DNA from: Protonemura montana
Taxonomy: Eukaryota > Arthropoda > Insecta > Plecoptera > Nemouridae
DNA: 64,000 bases
Assembly: GCA_947568835.1 (NCBI GenBank)
Contig: OX387610.1
Coordinates: 4,380,001 to 4,444,000, forward strand
Direction of reading: 5' to 3'
The position numbers and the translations under genes were made by a program. Within the stretch, counting starts at the first letter, position 1, and each line of letters begins with the position of its first letter. This document shows positions 15,501 through 59,440 of the stretch, one piece after another. The notes beneath the pieces are model-generated. The model was not told where the DNA came from and ran no database searches. It was given only the letters and a program-made list of their open reading frames with translations.

Positions 15501-17284
15501 GTGCTTTAAGAAAGCATGCTTAAAGATGCTTAACCATGCTCTTTGGTTGTTTTAGTTGACTGTTGAATTGTGTGAATCGAGGCATTTTCACACATGGACA
15601 TTGTCCTCTTATACATGGTTTATTTCCCATTCAATAAGTTTTGCAACCAACTGACCTCAAATATTTTAGGCATGGTTATAACCTAAAAAAATTGTACATG
15701 CTCTTTATGTTTTATGGAAGATTGGGTATTTATGTGGTATACTGCCGCACGGCTAATTCTGGTCGGATTGCTTTTTTGTTGGTAATTGTCTGTGCATCCT
15801 GTGTGATTAATGCATTTATTTGTTGAACAATTTGTTGTTCTTCTCAAAGTATGGCTGACGCAATGTGTAAGTCTGTTTTATCTTTCACAGATTCTGCGGA
15901 CGAAGAAAAGCCAGAGAGACCTGCGTGTGGCACAGATTTGTTTCAGTGCAAAGTGTGCCTGTCTAATTTTAGTGACAGAAAGTGTTTTGTAGTGCATGAA
16001 GCAAGTGACTGTGTGAAATGTCTGGTGCCCTCACTGTATGCCCTTGAAATGCCCTTGTCGATGACTCTTTTTGAGTGTGACTCATGCCAGAAGCTATTTG
16101 CCACCAAGAGTGGGTTGGAAGCCCACTTGCATTCAAACCTGCACTCGAAACCAAACACAGGAAAAATTTGCGACAGGAAATTCAACAACCAAAACGACCA
16201 CCCTGCATTCAAAGGCACAATCTGCAAAAAAAGTTTCAAGGGAAAGGACTCCTGTGCAAAGGAGTTTGCTCGGGAGGGTCATCTCAAGTGCAGTATATTG
16301 TTCATTTCATTGCAGTCTCGCATTGCAGTTCACACAGGATTGAAACTGTTTAAATGTAAACATTGTGGGGAAAGCTTTACTAAGAAGTGTAACCTCACGG
16401 CTCACATGAAAGTCCACGTTGGAGTAAAAGCTCACAAATGTCAAAATTGTGGGAAGCAATTTGCATTGAAAAATTATCTTAAAACTCACATGGCTGTGCA
16501 CAGTGGATTGAGACCTTATAAATGTGCAACTTGTGGGAAGGACTTTACTAGGAAAAATCAACTCACGGCTCACATGACAGTCCACACTGGAGTAAAAGCT
16601 CACAAATGTAACTCTTGTGGGAAGGAATTTGCATCCAAAGGGGTCCTCAAAACCCACATGGCTGTGCACACTGGATTGAAACCTTATAAATGTGAACATT
16701 GTAGGAAAGACTTTATTCAGAAGGGTCATCTCACGGCTCACATGAAAGTCCATACTGGAGTAGAAGCTCACAAATGTCGAATTTGTGCCAAGGAATTTGT
16801 ATCGAAATGGGTCCTCAAAACTCACATGGCTGTGCACAATGGGTTGAAACCTTATAAATGTGAACATTGTTCAAAGGGATTTTCTTACAAGAGTAATCTA
16901 ACGGCTCACATGAAAGTCCATACTGGAGTAGAAGCTCACAAATGTAACGTTTGTGGGAAAGAATTTGCATCCAAAGGGGTCCTCAAAACCCACATGGCTG
17001 TGCACACTGGGTTGAAACCTTATAAATGTGAACATTGTGGGAAAGACTTTATTCAGAAAGGTCAACTCACGGCTCACATGAAAGTCCATACTGGAGTAGA
17101 AGCTCACAAATGTAACGTTTGTGGGAAAGAACTTGCATCCAAAGGGGTCCTCAAAACCCACATGGCTGTGCACACTGGGTTGAAACCTTATAAATGTGAA
17201 CATTGTGGGAAAGACTTTATTCAGAAAGGTCAACTCACGGCTCACATGAAAGTCCACACTGAAGTAAAAGCTCACAAATGTTAA
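12551..17284 (+). CDS. C2H2 zinc-finger protein, copy 1, truncated by nonsense codons
   Basis: A probable nuclear DNA-binding protein; its target is unknown. Exons: 12551-12580 (MNSLAEEANM), 13376-13439 (MADPLPLDIKLEF…), 13525-13584 (…KPKLPICLKVETDDLF) and 15891-17284, joined in phase for 515 codons plus stop. The leader has short acidic ΨKxE-like patches. The finger exon has two atypical Cys/His segments and then about 12 regular C2H2 fingers. Linkers are TGVKAHKC and TGLKPYKC instead of TGEKP. Two-finger blocks of 168 bp are nearly identical (about 16917-17252), showing recent internal expansion. The ORF ends at a TAA inside a finger (HKC-stop), and further finger sequence follows. The 78-nt exon present in copies 2 and 3 is missing here, which keeps the frame. 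The ATG at 15851 is probably intronic, because a strong TTTATCTTTCACAG acceptor follows it and only that site fits the phase. Confidence 0.75.
12755..12840 (+). repeat. tRNA-like sequence (family B) in ZNF copy 1 5' intron
   Basis: Contains a box A (TAGCTCAGTTGGTAAAGCTC) and a box B-like ATTTGTATCCC around an anticodon-arm-sized spacer. A homologous copy lies at 40665-40740 in ZNF copy 2. It is probably a tRNA pseudogene or SINE head, since the box B is degenerate. Confidence 0.6.
14000..15400. other. Copy-1-specific insert within the ZNF leader intron
   Basis: The homologous introns of copies 2 and 3 run straight from the block matching 13990 to the block matching 15400. The 1.4 kb here is therefore an insertion, or was deleted in the common ancestor of the others. 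It has a poly-C tract at about 14070-14080 and no recognisable coding sequence. Confidence 0.5.
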
Positions 17285-37200: not shown

Positions 37201-40200
37201 AGAAGGAACATGGGATTTCTAACATAAGAGCCTCGTAAGCAACGACATAACTTTTACAAGAAACTTCCTTTGCACAAATTCGATATTTTAAAACTTTTGA
37301 GCCAGTGTGCATTTCCTTTTTTTGAATTAGGTTACTCTTTTATTTGTACTATTGTTAGCTAAATACTTCAAAGCACATTTTTTATGGACAGCTAGATGGC
37401 GCTTGAGACTCTCTTTAACAGCAAATTCCTTTGCACAATTTTCACATTTGTGAGGTTTTAATCCTGAGTGGAAGGAAGCCGTGTGATCCAAGAGTCGATA
37501 CTTGCGAGAAAATTCCTTTGAACATGTTTCACATTTGTACGGTTTTAATCCAGTGTGCACAACCATGTGAGCTTTGAGATTACGTTTTGATGCAAAATCA
37601 TTCCCACAAGCGTTACATTTATGAGCTTTTACTCCAGTGTGGACTGTCATGTGGTCCGTTAGATTACTTTGGCAAGAAAATTCCTTCGCACAATTTTGAC
37701 ATTTATAGTTTTTCAATTTAGTGTGCACAGCCATGTGAATTTTGAGAGGAGTTTTTGAGTGAAAAGAAGCCACGTGATCCAAGAGTCCTCTCTTGAAAGA
37801 AAATTCCTTCAAACATGTTTCACATTTGTACGGTTTCAATCTAGTGTGCAAAGCCATGTGAGTTGTGAGATTACTTTTCGATACGAAATCCTTCCCACAA
37901 GAGTTACATTTGTGAGCTTTTACTCCAGTGTGGACTGTCATGTGAGCCCTGAGATGACTCTTGCAAGAAAATCCCTTTGCACAATTTTGACAGTTATATT
38001 GTTTCAATCCAGTGTGCACAGCCATGTGAATTTTAAGATAATTTTTCAATGCAAATTGCTTCCCACAAGCATTACATTTGTGTGCTTTTACTCCAGTGTG
38101 GATTGTCATGTGAGCCGTGAGGTTACCCTTATGAGTAAAGTCCTTCCCACAAGTTTCACATTTCAACAGTTTAGATCCTGTGTGAACTGTAATGCGAGAC
38201 TTGACGTGACTCTTTCGAGCAAATTCCTTTGCACAGGTGTCCTTTCCGTTAAAACTTTTTTTGCAGATTGTGCCATGATATGCAGGGTAGTCGTTTTGGT
38301 TGTTAAATTTCCTGGCGCAAATTTTTCCTGTGTTTGGTTTCGAGTGCAGGTTTGAATGCAAGTGGGCATCCAACCCACTCTTGGTGGCAAATAGCTTCTG
38401 GCATGAGTCACAATCAAAAAGATTCATCGACAAGGGCATTTCAAGGGCATACAGTGAGGGCACCAGACATTTCACACAGTCACTTGCTTCATGCACCATT
38501 AAACACTTTCTGTCACTGAAATTAGACAGGCACACTTTGCACTGAAACAAATCTGTGCCACACGCAGGTCTCTCTGGCTTTTCTTCGTCCCCAGAATCTG
38601 TGAAAGATAAAACAGACTTACACATTGCGTCAGCCATACTTTGAGAAGAACAACAAATTATTCAACAAATAAATGCATTAATCACACATGATGCAGAGAC
38701 TGAATAAGGAATGTAATTACTGAACAAGCAGTTTACCTTCAGCACGTGCAGCTGCTGTCAGTAAGTGACATAAGATTGCAGTCAGTTGTGTTGATGTACT
38801 TGAGATTCATTTGCCAAAAATTATATTTCATTTAATTCCTCTTAATACAAGCAATGCTGCTACCAAATGTGAGACACAAATTTTACAGCAAACTCTTAAA
38901 AGTTTTCCATATTCCAGCAAATTTCTTGGGAAAAAAAGTAGGCACACCCAGGTATACCCAGGACTAAACCACTGGTTGCAACAGAACAAATGCAGGTCTA
39001 CTGATATCTATCCCGGATGCCTTGAACATTGGTTCTTCAAATTAGAGAAACTAACTTGCATCAGAGCCCGCGACTAAAAATTCAACAAAAAAAATGTCTT
39101 AGACATTTTAATGCGTCTATTTAAATTGGATAAAAATGTTCAGCTTAATGCAGAAACCAACTTGCCCCAGCAAATAGTCGTTAATGAGATAACACTTAAT
39201 TTTTAATTGATAGTAAATAAACTGGATTACAGTACCCTGGCGCACTCGGGCAGCCAGTCATAACGTCATCAAGACCACAAAATCGAATGAGCTTGCACTT
39301 ACTGTAGAGCACTTCATTGTGAGACCCGGGATGGGTTGACAATTCTGGTTTCACATCAGCCATTAGACAGGGATCTGGTGCTGCAAAATAATTAATGGAT
39401 TGGCATAGCAAGTAAAGTAGACTTATGCTGACTTATAAATTAAAAAAAGAAACTCTATCTAGTGAACAAACTTCTATGAAATATAAAAAGCATGTATATT
39501 TTTTTAAGTTGACCATGCCTAAAATGTAGATGGTTTGAGGTCATTAGGTTGCAAAACTCATTGAATTGGAAAGAATTCTCCAGTCACACACTATAACTAA
39601 TAACTAATAACTAACACAACCAATGAATCATTTCTGTAAGCATGCTTTCATAAAGCACTTAAGATGTCAATACACAAAAAAGAGGGGGTTTGAACACAGA
39701 TTAGAACTACAGGTCGATAAGTATACAAAGACTCGTGTCCAAAACTTATGAAAAATTAACGGGAGATAGAACAGGAGGTTTACTCGATTTAGAAACATCA
39801 ACTTAAACTGCTCTGTATAAGTTCATTTAGGTCCAGTATTACAATGTTACATAATTATAATTACATTACATACAACGACATAACTGGGAGTTAAAGGACT
39901 TATACATGTCGTGTGGATCAAAGATCAGACAACAAATTACACTACTCAAATGAAATCATAATCAAAGTAGGTTTCCCCCAAGACAGGAAAATTGCACCCA
40001 TAGTATACCAGCAACTTTTTAATGACAAGAACAAATGTCCCATCAGGAAGTCACTTTGTTTTGGTAGAGTACACCACATCGTGGACAAGTGGCTTAGGCA
40101 ATGGAGGAACCAAAATAAAACTAGAATCAACATTCGATAGCCATAAAATTAAAATAAAGCAGTTTTTACTTACTGAAGAGGTCTTCTTGCTCAACCTTGG

Positions 40201-43200
40201 GGCAGATTGACAATTTGGGTTTCTCATCATAATCTGTTGGAAAAAATTGGTTAAAAAAGAAATATTCAGATGTAGGAAATACAACAGATGACTACAGGTA
40301 CAACAAGGAAACTTACCGCCATGACAACTGTCATCCGACTGAAATTCCAGTTTTATATCGAGAGCGAGTGGATCAGCCATCTATAAAATCAAACACATTA
40401 GGGAGAGAGCAAGTAAAATCCAGTCGCATATATATCTAAAAAAAAATAGTGGCAGATAGCAATTACAGAACTAATTTAGATTTACACGGACCCTAATTAT
40501 ATTAAATTTAGGCTTCCAAACTGGGAAAGATTTCTGAAATGATTCCAGTCAATCATTAACAAGGCAAGCATGAAAGTGCTTAAACCCTTGCAATTGGCCT
40601 GACATGCAAGACACAGAAAATTCTATAAACATCATGAAAAAGAAGCTAGCCTGGAAAAATCAGCAACCGAACCGGGATACAAACCCGGGCCCTCCCAATT
40701 ACCGGTAGAGTGCTCTACCAACTGAGTTATTCGGGCTCACATTCCAGCTTTTGCGGGATGGGATAAAGGATCTCCTCTAGGATCACCTCGAGGGATCCAT
40801 TTTGATTCGGTTGCACATTTTTCCAGTCTAGCGCCCTTTCCATCCATTGCTTGCTGGTTTCAGCGCTACAGTAAAAACACCTAACGAACCAAAACATCTG
40901 CATACACAGCACTTTTATACATACCATATTAACCTCTTCAGCAAAGGAATCCATTTATTGGCACAGAAAGACTTGTTATAAATAATAAGTAAATTTTCTT
41001 GATCATGTATTCCGAGATAAATGGCTTAGTCTTGCTTTAGTAGAAGGGTAATATTTATTTCTTAACTGACTTACACTATTTAATCAAAGTATTTGACAAT
41101 ATTCGTGGACAATGTGCTCCAGTCAAGCTGAATCTAGCATTGCCACTTCCACATGAGTACATGTATGCAAATTTGAAATGTTACCAAATACATTTAATCT
41201 ACAGGTTAACGATATAATTTTACAACACCGTGATTGAAGATGTTTATCCTAGATATAAATATTTGTATTGTTTGGCCTAAGCAAAATGCAAAACCGAACC
41301 ATACGAACTCTATGAACGAAGAAAAATGTTGTGTTTACTCGATTCCTAACCTTATCTCTCCATAGCTAGCGACGCCTGCACCATCTAGTGGCAAAGTTGC
41401 AAGTTCCTTAGTAAGGGAACGTGTATTCAAATTTCCTCCGTTAGACTTATTTATTGTTCAGCCCTAATAATAATTATACGATGTAGACCAAAGAACATTT
41501 TAATTTTTTAAGTGGAACGTTCACTTTGCACAAAATTTTTTAAAGTTTACACAAATTTTTTTCTCCAATTTATTCATATATAATTGAAGCTTAGTAATTC
41601 TCACTAGTTCTGTATGCAGAATTATTTGGCAACACATCTGTGCTTTGATTCTATAAATAAAGGTACAATTTTTACAGATTTTTACAGAATATCCGATCTC
41701 ATGCCTAAACTGAGCGTAAGCTAAGTTAAGCCTGTTGTTGGTGACATAAGAAAGCAACTAGGTAAAGTCACCGTCGTTTCGATTGCGAAGCGTTGTAATT
41801 TCGTTATTTCTTGCAGATTACTTGCATTTGAAACTGGTTCAGGCTCAATTCATCTATATCATTGCAAACCTCAAAATTAGTATTCATGCTTTAATATTAT
41901 GAATCGCAATAATTTAATTGTGTTGATGTTCGCTAAAAAGAACGGCAGCAAGCACCATAGGGTGTTTGTTACCTACAGTTACTACGTGTTGCCGGCCTTG
42001 TTTTCTCAGAAGGAAGTTTTACATTCACACCGGCTCTGTTAAGATACATACGGAATCGCGGTTTGGCTTTAAACTTTCAGCATTTCTAACTGCTTTTCAA
42101 TCCATTCTCCAGGGCATGCCTAGTAGCCACCATCCAAGCCAGTGGCGCCGCTCAAAGCACTATCAAGCTGGTTGCTACCAACCTGATTGCCAACGGTTCA
42201 GTACCCGAGGGTGTTCAGCTGCTATGTCTCATTGGTAAAGGGTTGGACGCTAGTCGTTACCTCCTATCCTACGCCATGTGGGACCCTGCCGTATGGCTGG
42301 CCAAGGTAATCCATCCTAAAAATAATCCAGTTAATAAGTTAGGTATTTTAAATGGTTCAATTTTGATGTAGTACGTTTTTTGTGTCTCATTTGAATGTGT
42401 GTACTTCTTATTTCTCAAAAATAGTATCAGACACGTAATGATCTGGAAACTGATGCGCCTATTAACCCAACTGTTCATTCATTCAAGGTCGCCTTGCCGG
42501 CACAGGACGCCAACGAGGTTTTGAGGAAGTGGGCTGAGCATCTCTGGACCACCGGACAGAAGGTGAGATACCGATGAAGAAAATATAGTTGATGTTTCAT
42601 TTTGGAGCTTGTGATTAAATATGAAAAGTCAAGTGTGAGAAAAAACATTAATACTGTAAAAAATATTATCAAAAAGATACTGTTTGGAGAGAATTTTAAA
42701 ATTATCTGCATTTTTAGCCGCTTTGATTTCAGTAGGTAGTGCATTGAACAGGCGTCGGCCAGTTTTGATGACACAGGTGGTTGTGGTTTTCAGCCGGCAA
42801 AACTCAAAGGCTAGTGTGTCAGATCCCCTCGTCTGGTGCTAGTGAATAGTCTTGGACTTGGTGAAATAGCTAAGGTTTGAGTAGGTGAAGGAGCAGACAG
42901 CTAGAATGTACAGACAAGGTAGCGGTAAGATCTTGAGGTCCCGGAACGGTTGCCTGCACAAAGCCTTGTTGCTGATTCCCAGCATGGACCTGATTATCCT
43001 TTTCTGAGCCCTGAAGATTCTTATGCTCTCAGACGCACCTTCTTAGAAGATCAGACCGTACAGTAGCAGTGAAAGGGCACTTGCAAAGTAGACCACCCTG
43101 ACTGACAGGTGGTTTATGTTTCGGGCCAAGGTACGGAACATGAAAATCAATTTCGCAAGCTTGAAAAGCAGGCTTATGATGTGAAGGGACCATGAAAGCT

Positions 43201-43899: not shown

Positions 43900-45400
43900 G
43901 AAAACCCCTTTACAACCTGTTACAAAATTTTACAACACCTACTTTGCTTGTTGCAAGAGAATGCAATAGGAATAACCTCGACTCTAGAACTTTTAGGGTT
44001 GGGTTAATTCTTTCGTCGCTAAACTGGGCCCGGTGTACGCCATAGTGGTAAAGATGTTTATTTCCTCTCAAAAGTCTCTAATGCCGTACGACCAAGAAAG
44101 GCATATTGTATTTTCTTATTAGAAACACTAATAAATAGCCTCTCAAAAATGGGTCTCAACAAAGGACTTCATAAGTCATAAAAGGAACTTTTTGAATTTG
44201 ATGAGAAAAGCTTTTGCAATTAAAATCAGATTTTATGATTACAGTATTGAATTTATTAATTTTTAGCAGCTTCCTAGCTTGGTTACAATATGCTTGCATT
44301 TGATCTCTATTCCTAGCTTTAACAATTTTCTTCATTTTATTTATTCTAATTCTTAACTGATTTGCTGTTTCTGGCTAAAGATCGACCGCTTCTTTTTCTA
44401 GCAGATTCCATTCGGAAGTTGTTTTTTCGTTTGTACAGTTTTTATTTAGCCAGAAGCTCTTAGGTACATTACAATTTCTTACTTTAGCTTCCGATTAGAA
44501 TTCTGTTTGTGTTGAATTCCATCTTTAGGTATTTAAAATGCAATTATACAAACTAGTGCTTGCAGGTTTGGCACAAAGCAAGCCAAATCCAACAAGAAAA
44601 CAACATTTATATTTTTTTTACTGGAATTAAGTAAAAAAAAAAAAAATCCTGCAAGTAAACCAAGTCAAAATTTTGATGTTGCAAGCATATTGGCAAACCT
44701 GAACCAGAATTGTTATCGATTTTGTTTCGTATCCTTGGTGGCATGGTTATAATGGTGGTCAGATCAACTATTTAAACCAGTAGAGCTACAGCTAGAATGG
44801 AATTAAGATACAAACCATGGACCTCCCATGCCCGGTTGGGTGCTCTACTAATTAAGCTATCCGTGCAGACTGTTTTTAGTTTAGCAGGGTTGTGAGTCTA
44901 GCTCCCTTTCGATTCTTCCATAGCTAGTTTCAGCTCCCTTGTGGAATCACTAGAAAAACAACTGAGAACTGTTTTATGTTTTTGTGGATCCATTTCTCTC
45001 GATTTTATTCCTTGATGAAGCACACAGCCCGTGACAGCGCAGCAGGAATTCGCTCGAGTTCTCTCTGCGCTCGGAGTTCAGGATCCTGCTCTGGCAGAGT
45101 CAGCTGGGCTGGCCACAGAAACATCATAATTGCATTATGGACAACAGTGCACTGAAATTGGCTTAACCGAGTTCGTGACCTCGAGAAGAAATCGCTCAAG
45201 ATTTCTCTGTCATTTGGTGATAAAATAATTTAGTTTTTGTTTTGTGATTCATTCATTGTATGCATTTTTGTTATTTGTACAACAATTTTATTTAGATGTT
45301 GCTTACATTCCTTTACAGCTTTACGTAAAATAAAATAAACGTATGTTGTATGTTTAAAGTGATGAACTATTTAGATATATGTAAATTTGCATCTAAGGTT
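43900..45400. other. Duplicated tract without a confident gene
   Basis: Shared with 57215-58740. The minus strand near 44220-44470 has a stretch that reads like decayed coding DNA (MKKIVKARNRDQMQAYCNQA, interrupted by a stop further 5'). Another 64-codon frame is at 45199-45005 (…AQLTLPEQDPELRAQREL…) with no ATG. A tRNA-like minus-strand sequence is at about 44815-44885. I recognise no family and no consistent exon set. Confidence 0.35.
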
Positions 45401-45597
45401 AGGCTATAGGGATTAGCTGAAATGTTTACCACTTGTTCAGACCACTACAGAGGCAATCACTGTAAATTACAACGAAGATAACAACCCAGGATCAACCACA
45501 AAAAAATTAACAAAAGTCAAAATTTTACAAAAAAAATCGTAACGTTTTTGTTAAGTACAGCAAATAAAGATATTTCAAAGGATTGCAAATACCAGTC

Positions 45598-46566: not shown

Positions 46567-48349
46567 TCAAAGCAAATATTTTGAATTTTTATGGACAGCT
46601 AGATGTTTCTTGAGACCCTCTTTTAAAGCAAATTCCTTTGCACAAGTTTGACATTTGTGAGGTTTTAATCCTGAGTGGACGGAAGCCATATGATCCGATA
46701 GTCTACACTTGTGAGAAAATTTCTTCGAACATGTTTGACATTTGTAAGGTTTCAATGTCTTTGGTTTCAATCCAGTGTGTACAGCCATGTGGGTTTTGAG
46801 ATATTTTTTAAATGCAAATTTCTTCCCACAAACGTTACATTCGCAAGCTTTAACTCCAGTGTGGACTGTCATGTGGTCTGTTAGATTATTCTTGCAAGAA
46901 AATCCCTTTGCACAATTTTGACATTTATAGTTTTTCAATCTAGTGTGCACAGCCATGTGACTTCTGAGGGTAGTTTTTGATGCAAATTCCTTGGCACAAG
47001 TTTGACATTTGTGAGGTTTTAATCCTGAGTGGACTGCCATGTGAGCTTTGAGATATTTTTTCGTTGCAAATTTCTTCCCACAAACGTTACATTCGCAAGC
47101 TTTAACTCCAGTGTGGACTGTCATGTGGTCTGTTAGATTATTCTTGCAAGAAAATCCCTTTGCACAATTTTGACATTTATAGTTTTTCAATCTAGTGTGC
47201 ACAGCCATGTGACTTCTGAGGGTAGTTTTTGATGCAAATTCCTTGGCACAAGTTTGACATTTGTGAGGTTTTAATCCTGAGTGGACTGTCATGTGAGCTT
47301 TGAGATATTTTTTCGTTGCAAATTTCTTCCCACAAGCGTTACATTTGCAAGCTTTAACTCCTATGTGGACTATCATGTGAGCCGTGAGATTTCTCTTGCA
47401 AGAAAATGCCTTTGCACAATTTTGACATTTATAGTTTTTCAATCTAGTGTGCACAACCAAGTGAGCTTTGAAGGTAGTTTTCAAAGCAAATTGCTTGGCA
47501 CAAGTTTGACATTTGTGAGGTTTTAATCCTGAGTGGACGGCAGCCACATGATTCAAGACTCCTCTCTTGCGAGAAAATTCCATCGAACATGTTTCACATT
47601 TATAAGGTTTTAATCCAGTGTGCACAGCCATGTGGGTTTTAAGGACCCATTTGGATGCAAAATCCTTCCCACAAGCGTTACATTTGTGAGCTTCTACTTC
47701 AGTATGGACTTTCATGTGAGCCGTGAGTTGACCCTTATGAATAAAGTCTTTCCCACAATGTTCACATTTATAAGGTTTCAATCCAGTGTGCACAGCCATG
47801 TGGGTTTTGAGGACCCATTTGGATGGAAATTCCTTCCCACAAGCGTTACATTTGGGAGCGTTTACTCCATTGTGGACTGTCATGTGAGCCGTTAGATTAC
47901 TCTTGCAGGAAAATGCCTTTGCACAATTTTGACATTTATAGTTTTTCAATCTAGTGTGAATGTCCATGTGAATTTTGAGTGTAGTTTCCGATGCAAATTT
48001 CTTGGAACAACTTAGACATTTGTGAGGTTTTAATCCTGAGTGGAAGTCAGCTACGTGATCCAAGAGTCGACTCTTGCAAGAAAATCCCTTTGCACAATTT
48101 TGACAGTTATATTGTTTCAATCCTGTGTGTACAGCCATGTGGGTTTTGAGATATCTTTTCAATGCAAATTGCTTTCCACAAGAGTTACATTTGTGAGCTT
48201 TTACTCCAGTGTGGATTGTCATGTGAGCCGTGAGGTTACACTTATGAGTAAAGTCCTTCCCACAAGTTTCACATTTAAACAGTTTAGATCCTGTGTGAAC
48301 TGTAATGCGAGACTTGACGTGACTCTTTCGAGAAAATTTCTTTGCACAG
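46567..48349 (-). pseudogene. ZNF copy 3, 3' part (about 20 fingers), cut off by transposon
   Basis: The frame is open from the transposon junction to the stop at 46567 and encodes the half-finger CAKKFSRKSHVKSRITVH and then about 20 C2H2 fingers, twice as many as copy 2. A three-finger block (HKCQTCAKEFASKTTLRSH …, 84 residues, 252 bp) is repeated almost exactly, so the array has expanded recently. One linker has an extra KPKTL. There is no ATG at the 5' edge: the open frame enters from transposon sequence through a GTG. Confidence 0.85.
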
Positions 48350-48837
48350 GGGTCATTCCATGTGTAATCACTCACTTTTAATTAAATTTCACTTTGACCG
48401 ACCCAGATTTTGATGAAAATTGGTATACTTGTTAAGTTTGTTGACTTAGGGGCTATTATTTTTTTTTTTTTTTTTTGGTCCAACCGTTCGGATATTACAA
48501 GGGGGGGAAGTTGGGGTCATTTTGCCCCCCGGGCGTGTAGTGACCACCCTTTCTACGCAATATCTAGGGTTCTATGGGAGCTACAGAGCTGGGAAAAAAA
48601 TCATCTGAAAGGTAATTTCATACCCTACCTGAATATGGAAACAAAAATGACGATATGTTAATACGAATTTAATTGTGATTTTACACATCTGCATTTTCCA
48701 AAATGACCATATCGCTGATGAGTCATTTTTGATTTGCCTGATTTTTTTTCTATATATACAGAACATACATATGATCATGTGTTCCAAAAATCAAGATGGG
48801 TGTTTTACCACTTTCCAAGAAAAAAAATTTTTTCTAT
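48350..48837 (+). repeat. Left terminal inverted repeat
   Basis: About 488 bp matching the reverse complement of 51982-52460. It contains a poly-T tract and a GGGGGGGAAGTTGGGGTCAT block shared with the other end. It carries a 7-bp excess (TTTTAATTAAATTTC against CTCAAAC) about 27 bp from the terminus. Confidence 0.9.
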
Positions 48838-48940
48838 AAAAAAGTGCCTTTTTGCCAGTAGAACAGCATTTTGATCACAATTATTGTGATCAGAGCACTG
48901 GCATATATTTTATATTAAAGTTGATTTTTGTTTGCACAGT

Positions 48941-49190
48941 TGCATGTTCTTGAAATGTTATTCTCTACAATACAAATCGATTGTTTGCCATATTCCTGTA
49001 AATCATGGATCAAGTTGAAACAGTTCATAGAAGTCAAAAGTTTGTTCATTTCTTGTCTGGACTTGCATCTACAAGAATCTTAAAATGGTATTCCCTAGAA
49101 TACAACTATAGATTGTTTGTCATGCTCCTGAATCATGGATCAAGTTGTAACAGGTTACAAGTAAAAAGTTTGGTAATTTCTTGTCTGGAC
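48941..49190 (+). repeat. Tandem direct duplication (~122 bp x 2) before the transposase ORF
   Basis: Units 48941-49061 and 49062-49190 share AATCATGGATCAAGTTG and ATTTCTTGTCTGGACT in the same order. It lies between the left inverted repeat and the ORF. Confidence 0.75.
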
Positions 49191-49271
49191 TAAAGCAATC
49201 AGTCTCTGGCCTCATGTTGATGAGGATAGAAGCTAATTTGCTCTCAAGCACCTTTTATTTAGAGATTCATA

Positions 49272-51854
49272 ATGTGCTCAATTGGACTGTTCTTTGAAGA
49301 AGAATGTGGACCCATCGAAGATCTAGCGATTAAAAGCATTGAAAGTTTCAATAGTGACCAGCAGTTATCATTAGCTCTGCGTACTAAGTGTGATAATGTG
49401 AAGACCGTGTGTCATTTACATGAAAAGAAATTCCTTCGTCTGTATAGCTGTCACCACAAGTTATGCTGCGATCCGTTTCAGGCTCACTGTGGAATAGTGA
49501 AAGTTAATGGGTTAAGAGAAATTAATGCAGCATCCAGGACGAAATACTTGGAGATTGCCGACCTCATCCCTGGAAAGAAATTATGCTCAACTTGCCGTAA
49601 GCTGCTCTCGCTCAGGCTGAAGGAACTAACAACCGTTTCTGTTCTAACGCCAACTAAATCCACTGAACTTGACCTACCTTTCGTGGACATACCCTGTGAA
49701 GCAGATGCCGTGAATCAGTCTTTAGCTGCATTTGGTGTGTCACCTATTAATACCACCAAACTAAAGGGTAAATCTATGTTTTATTCGAAAAGAAAGTTCA
49801 GCGAAATAACACAAGGTGTAAAGAAGAGATTGGAACTAGTATCTCCCAGTAATGAAGAAATCAGCAAAGAAGATTTGACATCTTCAGAGGAGTGCAAGGA
49901 CAGCATCCGTGATGGGTCAGAGATAATAGCACAACTGAAAGAAAAGTTTAAGACGAGTACCAGAAGCGAGAAAATAACAATTTTATCTGTGCTTCCAAAA
50001 AGTTGGAGCATTAAGAGAATAATGCAAGAGTTCAATGCATCTAACCATTTGGTACGTAAAACCAAACAACTAGTAAAGGCCCAAGGGATACTGCCATCTG
50101 CAAATCAAAAAGCAGGAAAAACTCTTTCCCCTGATTGCATTCAACTGATTGAAGAGTTTTATGAAAATGATGATGTAAGCCGTGTCATGCCGGGTAAAAA
50201 AGATTTTGTCTCGGTTAAAGTGGGTGACAATCGAGTTCACCGCCAGAAGAGACTAGTGTTAAGCAACTTAAGTGAAGTGTATCGCAGCTTCAAAGATAAA
50301 TATCCTGACATCAAGGTTGGATTCTCGAAGTTTGCAGAGCTCAGACCCAAACATTGTGTTCTGGCAGGAGCAGCTGGGACACATTCTGTCTGTGTCTGTA
50401 CGATACACCAAAACGTTAAGTTGATGGCTTTGGGAGCAAAGCTGCCTTTGCTTTCAGACGGTACCATCAAATCATACCAACACTGCCTTGCCAGCCTCAT
50501 GTGCAACCCCCCGCTTCTCAACTGCTTTGTAGGAAAGTGTGGCAATTGTCCGGGAACCGATGAACTTCGTGAATGGCTAGAAATCTCATTCAGTGAAAAT
50601 TTCATAGACTCTGTGACTTATAAACAGTGGCTGTCAACAGACAGATGTACCCTAGAGACAATTACGAAACCTACAGATGAGTTTGTTGACTGTTTTATTG
50701 AAAAATGCATTTTATTAAGAAATCATGATTTTATTGCACGGCAGCAAGCGGCATTCATGCAGGAGAAGAAAGCCAACCTTAAACCAGGGGAAGTTTTAGT
50801 AGTGGGCGACTTCGCTGAGAATTATTCTTTTGTGCTCCAGGATGCTGCACAAGGTTACCATTGGAATAACAGCCAATGCACCCTTCACCCATTTGTGTGT
50901 TACTTTAAGCCTGAAGATCGAGACATACAACATTTAAGTTACGTTGTCATTTCTGACTCGCTAACTCATGACACCGTTACTGTGCACACTTTCCAAAAGC
51001 ACCTGATAAGACACCTGAAACAAAACATTTCGGATGTATCCCATTTAATTTACTTTTCTGATGGAGCGGCAGCCCAATATAAGAATAAGAAGAATTTTTC
51101 CAACTTGTGCCATCATGAAGTTGACTTCGAACTAACTGCTGAGTGGCATTTTTTTGCCACATCCCACGGTAAAGGACCATGCGATGGAGTTGGTGGGACT
51201 GTAAAACGAAATGCAGCACGGGCAAGTTTACAGAAACCATATGCCGACCAAATAATGACGCCGATAGACTTTTACCGGTGGGCAACAGAAAATGTGTGGA
51301 CTGTAAATTTTGTGTTTGTAGCCAATGAAGAGATTACAGCAAATGGCATCAAACTTAAAGAACGATTCAAAGAATTAAAAACTATCGTAGGCACAAGAAG
51401 CTTTCATGCGTTCTACCCAAAATCGCTAACTTCCTTACATGTGAAACACTTTTCTCTTTCTGAAGAAATCAACATTGTGAAGATTGTTGAGAAAAATGAA
51501 GAAGGAGAAGAAGAAGAAGAAGAAGAAGAGGAGGAAGCAACAGCAGCAGAAATACCCGAGTTTGAGTTCAAAGACGTGGGCAGTTTCATCACTGTAGCAT
51601 ACAACGAAGACTGGTGGCTAGCGTGTGTTCTTGAAAAATCATCACAGTCTCTTGAACTTCAAGTCAACTTTCTACACCCTCATGGACCAGCTCCATCATA
51701 TTTTTATCCCAGTGTACAAGACAAACTAATTGTAGCTTTTGCTGATGTTTTAACACTGGCCGACCCCAACACGGCAACTGGTCGAACATACTTTTTGTCG
51801 GCTACAGACACCAACAGGGCAACAGCAGGGCTTATAAAATATGTACCTCAATAA
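49272..51854 (+). CDS. Transposase-like protein of the 4.1-kb transposon
   Basis: A single uninterrupted ORF. The ATG directly follows an in-frame TAG. The N-terminus is Cys/His rich (CHLHEKKFLRLYSCHHKLCC near 47-66, CSTC near 105), probably zinc-binding. A helix-turn-helix-like stretch lies near 243-275. A conserved-looking block HCVLAGAAGTHSVCVCTIHQ is near 361-380. Acidic residues fit a DDE/D-type catalytic core: VVGDFAENYSF (~513), YFSDGAAAQYKNK (~598) and GPCDGVGG (~638). Near 742-754 there is a run of glutamates from a GAA repeat. The last ~90 residues (DVGSFITVAYNEDWWLACVL…) resemble a Tudor/chromo-like barrel, which is my inference. Intact frame and near-identical inverted repeats suggest a recently active, perhaps autonomous element. 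I recognise the type from uncharacterised invertebrate proteins but cannot name the family. Confidence 0.8.
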   Translation: MCSIGLFFEEECGPIEDLAIKSIESFNSDQQLSLALRTKCDNVKTVCHLHEKKFLRLYSCHHKLCCDPFQAHCGIVKVNGLREINAASRTKYLEIADLIPGKKLCSTCRKLLSLRLKELTTVSVLTPTKSTELDLPFVDIPCEADAVNQSLAAFGVSPINTTKLKGKSMFYSKRKFSEITQGVKKRLELVSPSNEEISKEDLTSSEECKDSIRDGSEIIAQLKEKFKTSTRSEKITILSVLPKSWSIKRIMQEFNASNHLVRKTKQLVKAQGILPSANQKAGKTLSPDCIQLIEEFYENDDVSRVMPGKKDFVSVKVGDNRVHRQKRLVLSNLSEVYRSFKDKYPDIKVGFSKFAELRPKHCVLAGAAGTHSVCVCTIHQNVKLMALGAKLPLLSDGTIKSYQHCLASLMCNPPLLNCFVGKCGNCPGTDELREWLEISFSENFIDSVTYKQWLSTDRCTLETITKPTDEFVDCFIEKCILLRNHDFIARQQAAFMQEKKANLKPGEVLVVGDFAENYSFVLQDAAQGYHWNNSQCTLHPFVCYFKPEDRDIQHLSYVVISDSLTHDTVTVHTFQKHLIRHLKQNISDVSHLIYFSDGAAAQYKNKKNFSNLCHHEVDFELTAEWHFFATSHGKGPCDGVGGTVKRNAARASLQKPYADQIMTPIDFYRWATENVWTVNFVFVANEEITANGIKLKERFKELKTIVGTRSFHAFYPKSLTSLHVKHFSLSEEINIVKIVEKNEEGEEEEEEEEEEATAAEIPEFEFKDVGSFITVAYNEDWWLACVLEKSSQSLELQVNFLHPHGPAPSYFYPSVQDKLIVAFADVLTLADPNTATGRTYFLSATDTNRATAGLIKYVPQ

Positions 51855-51981
51855 GGTAAACTACATCTCTCTTAAGATATGCAAATTTGTACTTCATAGT
51901 AGCTATGATTGTAAGTAATGATCATTTTCTTGAATGTTGTCTTAAATTCAGTTCATATTAATTTATATTATGAATGAATTT

Positions 51982-52460
51982 GCAGAAAACATTTTTTTTT
52001 CTTGGAAAGTAGTAGAACACCCATCTTGATTTTTGGAACACATGATCATATGTATGTTCTGTACATATAGAAAAAAAATCAGGCAAATCAAAAATGACTC
52101 ATCAGCGATATGGTCATTTTGGAAAATGCAGATGTGTAAAATCACAATTAAATTCGTATTAACATATCGTCATTTTTGTTTCCATATTCAGGTAGGGTAT
52201 GAAATTACCTTTCAGATGATTTTTTTCCCAGCTCTGTAGCTCCCATAGAACCCTAGATATTGCGTAGAAAGGGTGGTCACTACACGCGCGGGGGGCAAAA
52301 TGACCCCAACTTCCCCCCCTTGTAATATCCGAACGGTTGGACCAAAAAAAAAAAAATTAAAAAATAGCCCCTAAGTCAACAAACTTAACAAGTATACCAA
52401 TTTTCATCAAAATCTGGGTCGGTCAAAGTTTGAGGTGAGTGATTACACATGGAATGACCC
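51982..52460 (-). repeat. Right terminal inverted repeat
   Basis: Reverse complement of the left repeat. Homology stops where the AAAACATTTTTTTTTCTTGG tract gives way to unique DNA near 51980. Confidence 0.9.
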
Positions 52461-54645
52461 ACAGGTGTCCTTTCCGTTGACATTTTTTTTGTAGATTGTG
52501 CCTTTATATGTAGGGTAGTCGTTTTGGTTGTTGAATTTCCTGTTGCAAATTTTTCCTGTATTCGATTTGAAGTGCAGGTTTGAATGCAAGTGGGCATCCA
52601 ACCCACTCTTGGTGGCAAATAGCTTCTGGCATGAGTCACACTTAAAATGGTTCATCGACAAGGGCATTTCAAGGGCATGCAGTGAGGGCACCAGACATTT
52701 CACACAGTCACTTGCTTCATGCACCATTAAACACTTTCTGTCACTGAAATTAGACAGGCACACTTTGCACTGAAACAAATCTGTGCCACACGCAGGTCTC
52801 TCTGGCTTTTCTTCGTCCCCAGAACCTGTTAAAGATAAAACAGATTTATACTTTGTGTCAGTCATACTTTGAGAAGAACAACAAATTGTTCAACAAACAA
52901 ATGCATTTATCCACAGGATGCAGAGACTGAATAAGGAATGTAATTACTGAACAAGCAGTTTGCCTTCTGCACGTGCAGCTGCTGTCAGTAAGTGACATAA
53001 GATTGCAGTCAGTTTTGTTGATGTACTTGAGATTCATTTGCCAAAAATTATATTTCATTTAATTCCTCTTAATACAAGCAATGCTGCTACCAAATGTGAG
53101 ACACAAATTTTACAGCAAACTCTTAAAAGTTTTCCATATTCCAGCAAATTTCTTGGGAAAAAAAGTAGGCACACCCAGGTATACCCAGGACTAAACCACT
53201 GGTTGCAACAGAACAAATGCAGGTCTACTGATATCTATCCCGGATGCCTTGAACATTGGTTCTTCAAATTAGAGAAACTAACTTGCATCAGAGCCCGCGA
53301 CTAAAAATTCAACAAAAAAAATGTCTTAGACATTTTAATGCGTCTATTTAAATTGGATAAAAATGATCAGCTTAATGCAGAAACCAACTTGCCCCAGCAA
53401 ATAGTCGTTAATGAGATAACACTTAATTTTTAATTGATAGTAAATAAACTGGATTACAGTACCCTGGCGCACTCGGGCAGCCAGTCATAATGTCATCAAG
53501 ACCACAAAATCGAATGAGCTTGCACTTACTGTAGAGCACTTCATTGTGAGACCCGGGATGGGTTGACAATTCTGGTTTCACATCAGCCATTAGACAGGGA
53601 TCTGGTGCTGCAAAATAATTAATGGATTGGCATAGCAAGTAAAGTAGACTTATGCTGACTTATAAATTAAAAAAAGAAACTCTATCTAGTGAACAAACTT
53701 CTATGAAATATAAAAAGCATGTATATTTTTTTAAGTTGACCATGCCTAAAATGTAGATGGTTTGAGGTCATTAGGTTGCAAAACTCATTGAATTGGAAAG
53801 AATTCTCCAGTCACACACTATAACTAATAACTAATAACTAACACAACCAATGAATCATTTCTGTAAGCATGCTTTCATAAAGCACTTAAGATGTCAATAC
53901 ACAAAAAAGAGGGGGTTTGAACACAGATTAGAACTACAGGTCGATAAGTATACAAAGACTCGTGTCCAAAACTTATGAAAAATTAACGGGAGATAGAATG
54001 TCATAACAGATGGTAACCTCAATATTACGCTTATAGGTTTACTCGATTTAGAAACATCAACTTAAACTGCTCTGTATAAGTTCATTTAGGTCCAGTATTA
54101 CAATGTTACATAATTAGAATTACATTACATACAACAACATAACTGGGAGTTAAAAGACTTATAGTTCTACATGTAATGTGGACCAAAGATCAGACAACAA
54201 ATTACACTACTCAAATATAATCACAATCAAAGTAGGTTTCCCCAAGACAGGGAAATTGCACTAATAGTATACCAGCAACTTCTTAATGACAAGAACAAAT
54301 GTCCCATCAGGAAGTCACTTTGTTTTGGTAGAGTACACCACATCGTGGACAAGTGGCTTAGGCAATGGAGGAACCAAAAAAAAACTAGAATCAACATTCG
54401 ATAGCCATAAAATTAAAATAAAGTAGTTTTTACTTACTGAAGCGGTCTTCTTGCTCAACCTTGGGGCAGATTGACAATTTGGGTTTCTCATCATAATCTG
54501 TTGGAAAAAATTAGTTAAAAAAGAAATATTCAGATGTAGGAAATACAAGTAGATGACTACAGGTATAAGAAGGAAACCTACCGCCATGACAACTGTCATC
54601 CGACTGAAATTCCAGTTTTATATCAAGAGCGAGTGGGTCAGCCGT
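52461..54645 (-). pseudogene. ZNF copy 3, 5' exons
   Basis: Exons matching copy 2 are 54645-54582, 54497-54438, 53607-53530 and 52825 down to the transposon junction. The codon matching the ATG of the second leader exon is ACG. The segment that carries the 30-nt first exon in copies 1 and 2 is deleted (the join is near 55069), so both candidate starts are gone. Exon sequence otherwise remains open, with a Leu-to-Arg change (EQEDRF). The coding sequence stops at KDTC, where the transposon begins. With the element inserted, neither half can give the full protein. Confidence 0.85.
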
Positions 54646-56192
54646 CTATAAAATCAAACACATTAGGGAGAGAGCAAGTATTTTCTGTCATAGAACATAA
54701 TTCAGCACTCAATTCACATTTAAGTTTAAAGTAAAATCCAGTCGCATATATATCTAATAGTACATATAATTCATATTTAACAGACCCTTGAAAACCATCT
54801 CATTGATTACATCTTACTTGATCAAGGAATATTTTAAAAGATAAAAAAATTATTTTAATTTTATGTTGCCTTTCCGCTCACTGTACAGGTAAACTCATAT
54901 TACTATTATTGTAATTATATTGAAAATTCTCATAGCTCCTTTAGAGTAAAAAAAAAATTATAAAAAAAAAATAGTGGCAGATAGCAATTACAGAACTAAT
55001 TTAGATTTACACGGACCCTAATTACATTAAATTTAGGCTTCCAAACTGGGAAAGATTTCTGAAATGATTTACATTTTCTTGATCATATATTCTGAGATAA
55101 ATGGCTCAGTCTTGCTTTAGTAGAGAGGTAATATTTATTTCTTAACTGACTTACACTATTTAATCAAAGTATTTGACAATATTCGTGGACAATGTGCTCC
55201 AGTCAAGCTGAATCTAGCATTGCCACTTCCACATGAGTACATGTATGCAAATTTGAAATGTTACCAAATACATTTAATCTACAGGTTAAAGGTATAATTT
55301 TACAACGCCGTGATTGAAGATGTTTATCCCAGATATAAATATTTGTATTGTTTGGCCTAAGCAAAATGCAAAACCGAACCATACGAACTCTATGAACGAA
55401 GAAAAATGTTGTGTTTACTCGATTCCTAACCTTATCTCTCCATAGCTAGCGACGCCTGCACCATCTAGTGGCAAAGTTGCAAGCTCCTTAGTAAGGGAAC
55501 GTGTATTCAAATTTCCTCCGTTAGACTTATTTATTGTTCAGCCCTTATAATAATTATACGATGTAGAGCAAAGAACATTTTAATTTTTTAAGTGGAACGT
55601 TCACTTTGCACAACATTTTTTAAAGTTTACACAAATTTTTTTCTCCAATTTATTCATATATATTTGCAGCTTAGTAATTCTCACTAGTTCTGTATGCAGA
55701 ATTATTTGGCAACACATCTGTGCTTTGATTCTTTAAATAAAAGTAAAATTTTTACAGATTTTTATAGAATATCCGATCTCATGCCTAAACTGAGCGTAAA
55801 CTAAGTTAAGCCTGTTGTTGGAGACATAAGAAAGCAACTAGGTAAAGTCACCGTCGTTTCGATTGCGAAGAGTTGTAATTTCGTTATTTCTTGCAGATTA
55901 CTTGCATTTGAAACTGGTTCAGGCTCAATTCATCTATATCATTGCAAACCTCAAAATTGGTATTCATGCATTAATATTATGAATCGCAATAATTTAATTG
56001 TGTTGATGTTCGCTAAAAAGAACGGCAGCAAGCACCATAGGGTGTTTGTTACCTACAGTTACTACGTGTTGCCGGCCTTGTTTTCTCAGAAGGAAGTTTT
56101 ACATTCACACCGGCTCTGTTAAGATACATACGGAATCGCGGTTTGGCTTTAAACTTTCAGCATTTCTAACTGCTTTTCAATCCATTCTCCAG

Positions 56193-56928
56193 GGCATGCC
56201 TAGTAGCCACCATCCAAGCCAGTGGCGCCGCTCAAAGCACTATCAAGCTGGTTGCTACCAACCTGATTGCCAACGGTTCAGTACCCGAGGGTGTTCAGCT
56301 GCTATGTCTCATTGGTAAAGGGTTGGACGCTAGTCGTTACCTCCTATCCTACGCCATGTGGGACCCTGCCGTATGGCTGGCCAAGGTAATCCATCCTAAA
56401 AATAATCCAGTTAATAAGTTAGGTATTTTAAATGGTTCAATTTTGATGTAGTACGTTTTTTGTGTCTCATTTGAATGTGTGTACTTCTTATTTCTCAAAA
56501 ATAGTATCAGACACGTAATGATCTGGAAACTGATGCGCCTATTAACCCAACTGTTCATTCATTCAAGGTCGCCTTGCCGGCACAGGACGCCAACGAGGTT
56601 TTGAGGAAGTGGGCTGAGCATCTCTGGACCACCGGACAGAAGGTGAGATACCGATTTTATGATTTACCAATGATTTATCTAGTTCGAAGCATAGTTTGGC
56701 CCCTAGTTTCTAACCCCTTGTTTCATGCAGGAGAAGGCTGTGCTCGCAGCGTTGACTTCAGGACGCCCACATCGCGTCTTAGAGATGTTGGTAGCCCTGG
56801 GTCTGCGCACCCGAGCCACACTTTACCGAGCTGCACTACAAGACTTTGGCATCGCCGTCGACGACGCGGATGATATCCTTTACAAGCCCCGTCCTGTTAC
56901 CACTGTTAGATGTGTTCCTGACTTATAA
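56193..56928 (+). CDS. WDR11: Second copy of WDR11 exons 20-22 (alternative 3' end)
   Basis: Exons 56193-56385, 56568-56642 and 56731-56928 match 42113-43609 with intact splice sites and the same phases (2-in, 0, 0). The only protein difference I find is Ala-to-Val near the C-terminus (PATT to PVTT). Splicing from exon 19 (34715) to 56193 would give an almost identical protein across a 21.5-kb intron. There is no local promoter or upstream exons, so it is a partial duplicate unless used this way. Intron 21 here is 88 bp, lacking the LINE of copy A. Confidence 0.85.
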
Positions 56929-57214: not shown

Positions 57215-58740
57215 AAGATGAAAACCCCTTTACAACCTGTTACAAAATGTTACAACACCTACTTTGCTTGTTGCAAGAGAATGCAATAGGATTAACCTCG
57301 ACTCTAGAACTTTTAGGGTTGGGTTAATTCTTTCGTCGCTAAACTGGGCCCGGTGTACGCCATAGTGGTAAAGATGTTTATTTCCTCTCAAAAGTCTCTA
57401 ATGCCGTTCGACCAAGAAAGGCATATTGTATTTTCTTAATAAAAACACTAATTTTATAGCCTCTCAAAAATGGGTCTCAACAAAGGACTTCAACCCTAAG
57501 TAAGTCATAAAAGGAACTTTTTGGATTTGATGAGAAAAGCTTTTGCAATTAAAATCAGATTTTATGATTACAGTATTGAATTTATTAATTGTTAGCAGCT
57601 TCCTAGCTTGGTTACAATATGCTTGCATTTGATCTCTATTCCTAGCTTTAACAATTTTCTTCATTTTATTTATTCTAATTCTTAACTGATTTGCTGTTTC
57701 TGGCTAAAGATCGACCGCTTCTTTTTCTAGCAGATTCCATTCGGAAGTTGTTTTTTCGTTTGTACAGTTTTTATTTAGCCAGAAGCTCTTAGGTACATTA
57801 CAATTTCTTACTTTAGCTTCCGATTAGAATTCTGTTTGTGTTGAATTCCATCTTTAGGTATTTAAAATGCAATTATACAAACTAGTGCTTGCAGGTTTGG
57901 CACAAAGCAAACCACATCCAACAAGACAACAACATTTATATTTTTTTTACTGGAATTAAGTAAAAAAAAAAAAATTCCTGCAAGTAAACCAAGTCAAAAT
58001 TTTGATGTTGCAAGCATATTGGCAAACCTGAACCAGAATTGTTATTGATTTTGGTTCGTATCCTTGGTGGCATGATTATAGTGGTGGTCAGATCAACTAT
58101 GTAAACCAGTAGAGCTACAGCTAGAATGGAACCAAGATACAAACCATGGACCTCCCATGCCCGGTTGGGTGCTCTACTAATTAAGCTATCCGTGCAGACT
58201 GTTTTTAGTTTAGCAGGGTTGTGAGTCTAGCTCCCTTTCGATTCTTCCATAGCTTGTTTCAGCTCCCTTGTGGAATCACTAGAAAAACAAAAAAAACCCT
58301 GAGAACTGTTTCAGGTTTTTGTGAATCCATTTCTCTCGATTTTATTCCTTGACGAAGCACACAGCCCGTGACAGCGCAGCAGGAATTCGCTCGAGTTCTC
58401 TCTGCGCTCGGAGTTCAGGATCCTGCTCTGGCAGAGTCAGCTGGGCTGGCCACAGAAACATCATAATTGCATTATGGACAACAGTGCACTGAAATTGGCT
58501 TAACCGAGTTCGTGACCTCGAGAAGAAATCGCTCAAGATTTCTCTGTCATTTGGTGATAAAATAATTTAGTTTTTGTTTTGTGATTCATTCATTGTATGC
58601 ATTTTTGTTATTTGTACAACAATTTTATTTAGATGTTGCTTACATTCCTTTACAGCTTTACGTAAAATAAAATAAACGTATGTTGTATGTTTAAAGTGAT
58701 GAACTATTTAGATATATGTAAATTTGCATCTAAGGTTAGG
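57215..58740. other. Second copy of the tract without a confident gene
   Basis: Homologous to 43900-45400. It has the same two minus-strand open frames (57664-57464 and 58536-58342) and the tRNA-like sequence at about 58135-58205. The copies are so similar that frame conservation says little about function. Confidence 0.35.
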
Positions 58741-58884
58741 CTATAGGGATTAGCTGAAATGTTTACCACTTGTTCAGACCACTACAGAGGCAATCACTGT
58801 AAATTACAACGAAGATAACAACCCAGGATCAACCACAAAAAAATTAACAAAAGTCAAAATTTTACAAAAAAAATCGTAACGTTT

Positions 58885-59440
58885 TGTTTAGTAAGGGAAC
58901 TTGTATTCAAAATTCCTCCGTTACATAGCCCTTAAAATAATTATACGATGTAGAGCAAAGAACATTTTTATTTGTTAAGTGAAATAATTTGCACAAAACT
59001 TCTCTACATTTTTTTTTGAAGTGCACGTAATATTTTTTTTTCTTCAATTTATTCATATGTTATAATAATTGCAGTTGACAGTAATTTCATGCTTTAGCAA
59101 AGTAATATCAAAGGATTGCAAATTCCTCTCAGGTACGTCGCAGCATGTGGTTTGCAAAATTAGATATAACATTTCCAAACTTTTGTGTTTTTGATTGTCA
59201 AAACTTGAAAAAAAAACAGACTAAAAAATGCACGAAAATTGATAATTACACAAAAGTAAGTTGTGCAAGATTTATTTTTGGTTATTTGAAAATTTTTATT
59301 TTAACCATTCGCAAGACACGGACTATTAGGAAAAAATTGTAAAGATCTGAAATCGTAAATTCGACAGCAGACATTTGTTCAAAGGAGCGGCAAGTGACGC
59401 GTCAAATTTGTTTCTACTTTTAACCGCTCCCACAACATTT
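58885..59440. repeat. Remnants of a further ZNF-unit copy
   Basis: First comes a TTAGTAAGGGAACTTGTATTC block matching 41408 and 55490 (ZNF 5' flank). Then 59100-59400 matches the ZNF 3' flank at 36680-36950 and 45830-46100. No finger exon follows. A weaker relative of the first block is at about 60605-60720. Confidence 0.55.

Follow-up and report, generated by a model that had tools for sequence, protein, structure and literature searches.

The window examined here, a 64,000-nt stretch of the Protonemura montana genome (contig OX387610.1, positions 4,380,001 to 4,444,000), contains a zinc-finger (ZNF) gene copy cut in two by inserted DNA, which raises the question of what kind of element split the gene, when it arrived and whether it can still move. 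Positions below are those of the window.

15851-17284, plus strand: ZNF copy 1, open 477-codon frame, unsplit site at 16252-16255
37327-38637, minus strand: ZNF copy 2, open 436-codon frame, unsplit site ACAG at 38233-38236
46567-48349, minus strand: ZNF copy 3, zinc-finger array severed from the N-terminal part
48346-48349, plus strand: left target-site duplication (TSD), ACAG
48350-52460, plus strand: transposon, 4,111 bp, delimited by its ends and by comparison with genomic copies
48350-48833, plus strand: left terminal inverted repeat (TIR), with the octamer GGGTCATT at its tip, repeated at 48514
49272-51854, plus strand: transposase frame, 860 codons, open
51987-52460, minus strand: right TIR
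52461-52464, plus strand: right TSD, ACAG
52465-52865, minus strand: ZNF copy 3, N-terminal part

The element starts with GGGTCATTCC at 48350 and finishes with GGAATGACCC at 52451-52460, each unique within the window, and both the ends and the ACAG flanks lie where a reading made from the sequence alone had put them. The two TIRs (~475 bp) pair perfectly over 26 bp, then differ by an unequal segment (15 vs 5 bp) and pair again over 443 bp at 98%, giving, gaps apart, 474 identities in 485 columns. The 860-codon frame contains no internal stop, in agreement with the intact ORF described earlier. Each TIR contains a further, internal occurrence of the tip octamer (GGGTCATT/AATGACCC), at 48514 (~164 bp from the left tip) and at 52299 (~154 bp from the right tip), perhaps a second binding site.

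Removal of the element and one ACAG from ZNF copy 3 restores KDTC-AKKF within an open 727-codon frame, which bears out the proposal that the gene was split between the codons for KDTC and AKKF. ZNF copy 2 retains a single ACAG (38233-38236, plus strand) and matches the joined flanks at 72 of 78 bases, as had also been proposed; the follow-up added the same arrangement in ZNF copy 1, absent from the sequence-only reading, with one ACAG (16252-16255, opposite strand) and 45 of 50 bases matching in an alignment that starts just 6 bp left of the ACAG. To the right of the site, an alignment of ZNF copies 2 and 3 has 61 mismatches over 2,222 columns (95.4% identity with gaps), and a stretch further out has 25 over 1,431. 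ZNF copy 3 is thus a natural gene knockout with unsplit sister genes beside it.

The window's own 258-Mb assembly was searched for further members of the same family (family A). The termini (first 22 bases, ≤2 mismatches) were found 345 times, compared with 0 for a reversed control, and exact left ends 165 times (92 + 73), while a 34-mer from the catalytic core (≤2 mismatches) gave 163 matches, the 100 listed all having 0 mismatches. The first 100 termini listed form 49 pairs, 47 of them 4,111 bp apart, one 4,110 and one 4,112, and the two unpaired termini fall at one nested place. The nearly equal counts of ends and cores, together with the end pairs, suggest that nearly all family A copies are full length. 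In a search with the transposase protein (582 first-look candidates), 53 of 53 scored matches were 100% identical and stop-free. TTAGG repeats are also plentiful in this assembly (15,571 pattern matches), as befits an arthropod.

Forty-three full-length 4,111-bp copies out of about 165, i.e. the window copy and 42 others, were read. L051 (4,114 bp, with a TSD), L039/L040 (one nested place counted twice) and L015 (without an end pair) were excluded. Letter-identical copies make up 28 of the 43, and π is 2.6e-4, with 9 singletons and 4 shared variable sites, in a set chosen via protein match or exact left end and so biased toward identical copies. Two copies (L045, L047) have one amino-acid change each, and the window copy departs from the majority by a single private substitution (element position 109). 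An exact 4-bp TSD flanks 41 of the 43 (shuffled mean 1.46, maximum 6) and all 10 additional copies checked on contigs C3, C4, C5, C11, C12 and C13, while a 5-bp duplication, tested on the same 43, fits none. The two exceptions are L016, which adjoins the TIR of another copy, and L029 (TTTT/TTAA). Target sites are varied and AT-rich (42 sites; TTAA in 1), with C before the 4 bp in 19/42 and G after in 17/42; the site in ZNF copy 3 has both. The sequence-only reading had suggested that the element may still be mobile and stated that its account would fail if the family proved to have different termini elsewhere or a TSD of a different length; the genome search that it called for found neither as a rule, in support of that suggestion.

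With 28 of 43 copies letter-identical and 41 of 43 bearing exact TSDs, the family appears to have burst very recently, long after the ZNF genes were duplicated: the 61 mismatches in 2,222 columns between ZNF copies compare with 9 singletons in 43 × 4,111 bp of element, and the earlier view that insertion followed duplication stands. That view had also drawn on the near-identical TIRs. Their similarity is real, but it fails as an argument about age, since the differences between left and right TIRs are common to the letter-identical copies; these differences therefore predate the burst, were already present in the founder, and cannot date the insertion. At an insect mutation rate near 3e-9 per site and generation, the 5.1e-5 singletons per site would correspond to an age on the scale of 17,000 generations, or fewer if some singletons are sequencing errors. 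Near identity may also owe something to homogenisation of repeats by the assembler.

Copies are unevenly distributed. Family A occurs on 11 contigs at densities of 0.15 to 1.14 per Mb (chi-square 29.2, 10 df, p = 0.0012), the contrast being between C12, C14, C15 and C16 on the one hand and C2 on the other. Ten neighbour pairs lie within 10 kb of each other, compared with 1.25 expected and a maximum of 6 in 2,000 shuffles (ends of five contigs approximated), and some copies sit inside others. Nested or abutting copies were seen at C1:22022459-22030684, C14:9237906-9242095 and C5:12180806-12181777; at the last, two left ends diverge and a second one lies 421 bp within each, which might reflect a hot spot for self-targeting or a local duplication. 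Such nesting and clustering, and TIRs long enough to undergo conversion, are what might be expected if an older family had been homogenised by gene conversion with no recent burst. We regard this as very unlikely, given that copies are spread over 11 contigs, that 51 of 53 copies checked have exact TSDs, that no intermediate divergence appears among the copies listed (100 of 163 cores, all with 0 mismatches) and that L058, which comes closest among the other relatives read, is only about 70% identical and has many stops. A separate alternative is that the unsplit ZNF sites are not ancestral, the sister copies having lost the element. An exact excision can leave one target site behind, but it would be needed in both sister copies, and the ZNF divergence long predates the element copies; we hold this explanation to be extremely improbable.

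A recent burst is thus the preferred reading, and about 165 near-identical, apparently working copies imply that the genome seems to have been caught in, or just after, a transposon outbreak; to our knowledge, such bursts are rarely caught. The central claim of the sequence-only reading was right but understated, the split gene being one event of this ~165-copy burst. Near-identical full-length copies, an open frame, TSDs and unsplit sites are together the features of a recently active autonomous cut-and-paste element, and we are highly confident that this is such a DNA transposon, with an anatomy like that of Sola, and that its expansion here is very recent. Observed directly were the termini with their 4-bp TSDs, the uninterrupted sites in the sister genes, the number of copies and how nearly identical they are, and the open frames; current activity we infer, and mobility of the element today appears likely. 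Its near-clonal, open, full-length copies single the element out as a good candidate for a DNA transposon, with long TIRs and 4-bp TSDs, that is active at present.

Searches of Pfam, NCBIfam, PHROGs and PDB sequences with the transposase gave no significant match. A low-confidence predicted model (pLDDT 45.5) has an RNase-H-like order of strands and helices, and three candidate catalytic aspartates would sit in it as they do in RNase H folds.

50808-50810, plus strand: D513, candidate catalytic residue closing predicted strand 1; conserved in family A and in family B (sister family, below); low-confidence model
51060-51062, plus strand: D597, candidate catalytic residue just past predicted strand 4 (SDGAAAQYKN); conserved in both families; low-confidence model
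51183-51185, plus strand: D638, candidate catalytic residue where a predicted helix begins (CDGVGGTVKR); conserved in both families; low-confidence model

Foldseek with this model returned nothing at E 0.001; most of the 20 best rows are RNase-H-like proteins, and the lower rows include unrelated folds. On this model the transposase is probably RNase-H-like with a DDD triad. As for the chemistry, we infer a cut-and-paste reaction: the 860-aa transposase would bind inverted ends of about 475 bp, cut the element out and join it into a 4-bp staggered break in AT-rich target DNA, C being weakly favoured before the 4 bp and G after them. One such insertion fell within the ZNF copy 3 coding frame.

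The element fits Sola (Sola1/2/3) in its anatomy, a likeness by description and not by transposase sequence. Sola elements share with it a 4-bp TSD, AT-rich as for Sola2-type elements, as well as TIR length and element size, and the three candidate aspartates would be a counterpart of the Sola DDD transposase (PMC10741241, PMC3627910). The 4-bp TSD was found here in 41/43 and 10/10 copies, and TIRs of ~475 bp and a length of 4,111 bp fall within the ranges given for Sola (TIR 11-1124 bp, element mostly 2-9 kb; PMC10741241). Ginger1 and Ginger2 resemble it in the 4-bp TSD and, putatively, in a DDE-type transposase, but are described as ending in TGTNR, with a CCGG or CCGT TSD for Ginger1 (PMC2836005). 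The window element ends in GGGTCATTCC and its 42 sites are varied and AT-rich, which sets both apart from it, as the single TTAA among those sites does the TTAA-specific Kolobok and piggyBac. As a recently expanding arthropod DNA transposon with identical copies, the element resembles Mariner-2_DF of the fire ant, whose published description gives π of 0.0051 and 30 identical copies among 857 (2.6e-4 and 28/43 here) and calls the case rare (PMC6307670); however, Tc1/mariner elements make 2-bp TA duplications (PMC10741241), and this one duplicates 4 bp.

Two kinds of relative were found in the same genome. L058 (C2:10803050-10805500) is a degraded relative of family A with the same terminal tip (GGGTCATTCCATGTG), 71% identity in the core, 68% in the TIR and many stops. 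Family B, a sister family, has 45-52% aa identity to the window transposase in L055 and L056, and tips (GGGTCATTCCAT[A/G]TC) near-identical to those of family A. Searching with 535 aa of family B gave a list of 83 matches, with 81 scored from 445 candidates. Among them are 52 that span 529 aa or more of the query at 99-100% identity, 51 of the 52 being stop-free, and 45 have the same bit score. This identity implies that family B also burst recently. In L055 (C1:9790400-9793300), a family B copy that was read, the open frame is 540 long, compared with about 702 in others. Presence of a degraded relative with the same ends, and of family B, in one genome is compatible with a burst from a lineage long resident in the host instead of horizontal transfer, but no intermediates between L058 and the clonal set occur among the matches listed; we hold long residence to be plausible, if somewhat doubtful.

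Family A has almost no derivatives that we could see, and family B has many. The first 100 of 140 places listed include 97 B-type motif matches; 58 of these are arranged as 29 divergent pairs and 39 stand alone, with no convergent pair. Pair spacings are 618 (×1), 622 (×5), 687 (×2), 991 (×6), 1106 (×8), 1203 (×6) and 1313 (×1), and these seven classes suggest several palindrome founders. L056 (C1:13656551-13659273; also L059, L060), read nearly whole, is an inverted duplicate of the 3′ half of the transposase, whose 1,173-nt arms are given as 100% complementary, with a 31-nt loop and a flanking 4-bp duplication. For 10 other divergent pairs only the predicted ends were read (L062-L081): nine have both tips and a 4-bp duplication, and the tenth lacks a right tip at the predicted place. 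Tips and duplications are accordingly present at 10 of the 11 palindromes where ends were checked, and these palindromes therefore moved as units.

A comparable structure is Mu killer of maize, in which part of a transposase gene is duplicated in inverted orientation and one terminal repeat is present twice; it silences its own transposon family (PMC3440606). Mu killer is a single locus, whereas the family B derivatives are many, with a 4-bp TSD of their own where checked. By this analogy, with families A and B both bursting, the family B palindromes could yield hairpin RNA of the transposase and thereby spread loci that silence the family itself, a mobile Mu killer, and family A would as yet be without such a response; we think this rather unlikely, but if true, the birth of transposon resistance could be watched directly. 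A genome with such palindromes could reveal the origin of derivatives and hairpin-based silencing during invasion.

Two further repeats were noted in the window. Positions 55070-56500 match 40990-42420 at 98.3% over 1,431 bp, adjoining the 95.4% stretch shared by ZNF copies 3 and 2, and this uneven divergence perhaps reflects gene conversion. Positions 44000-45557 and 57320-58893 form another pair, 97.3% identical over 1,575 columns.
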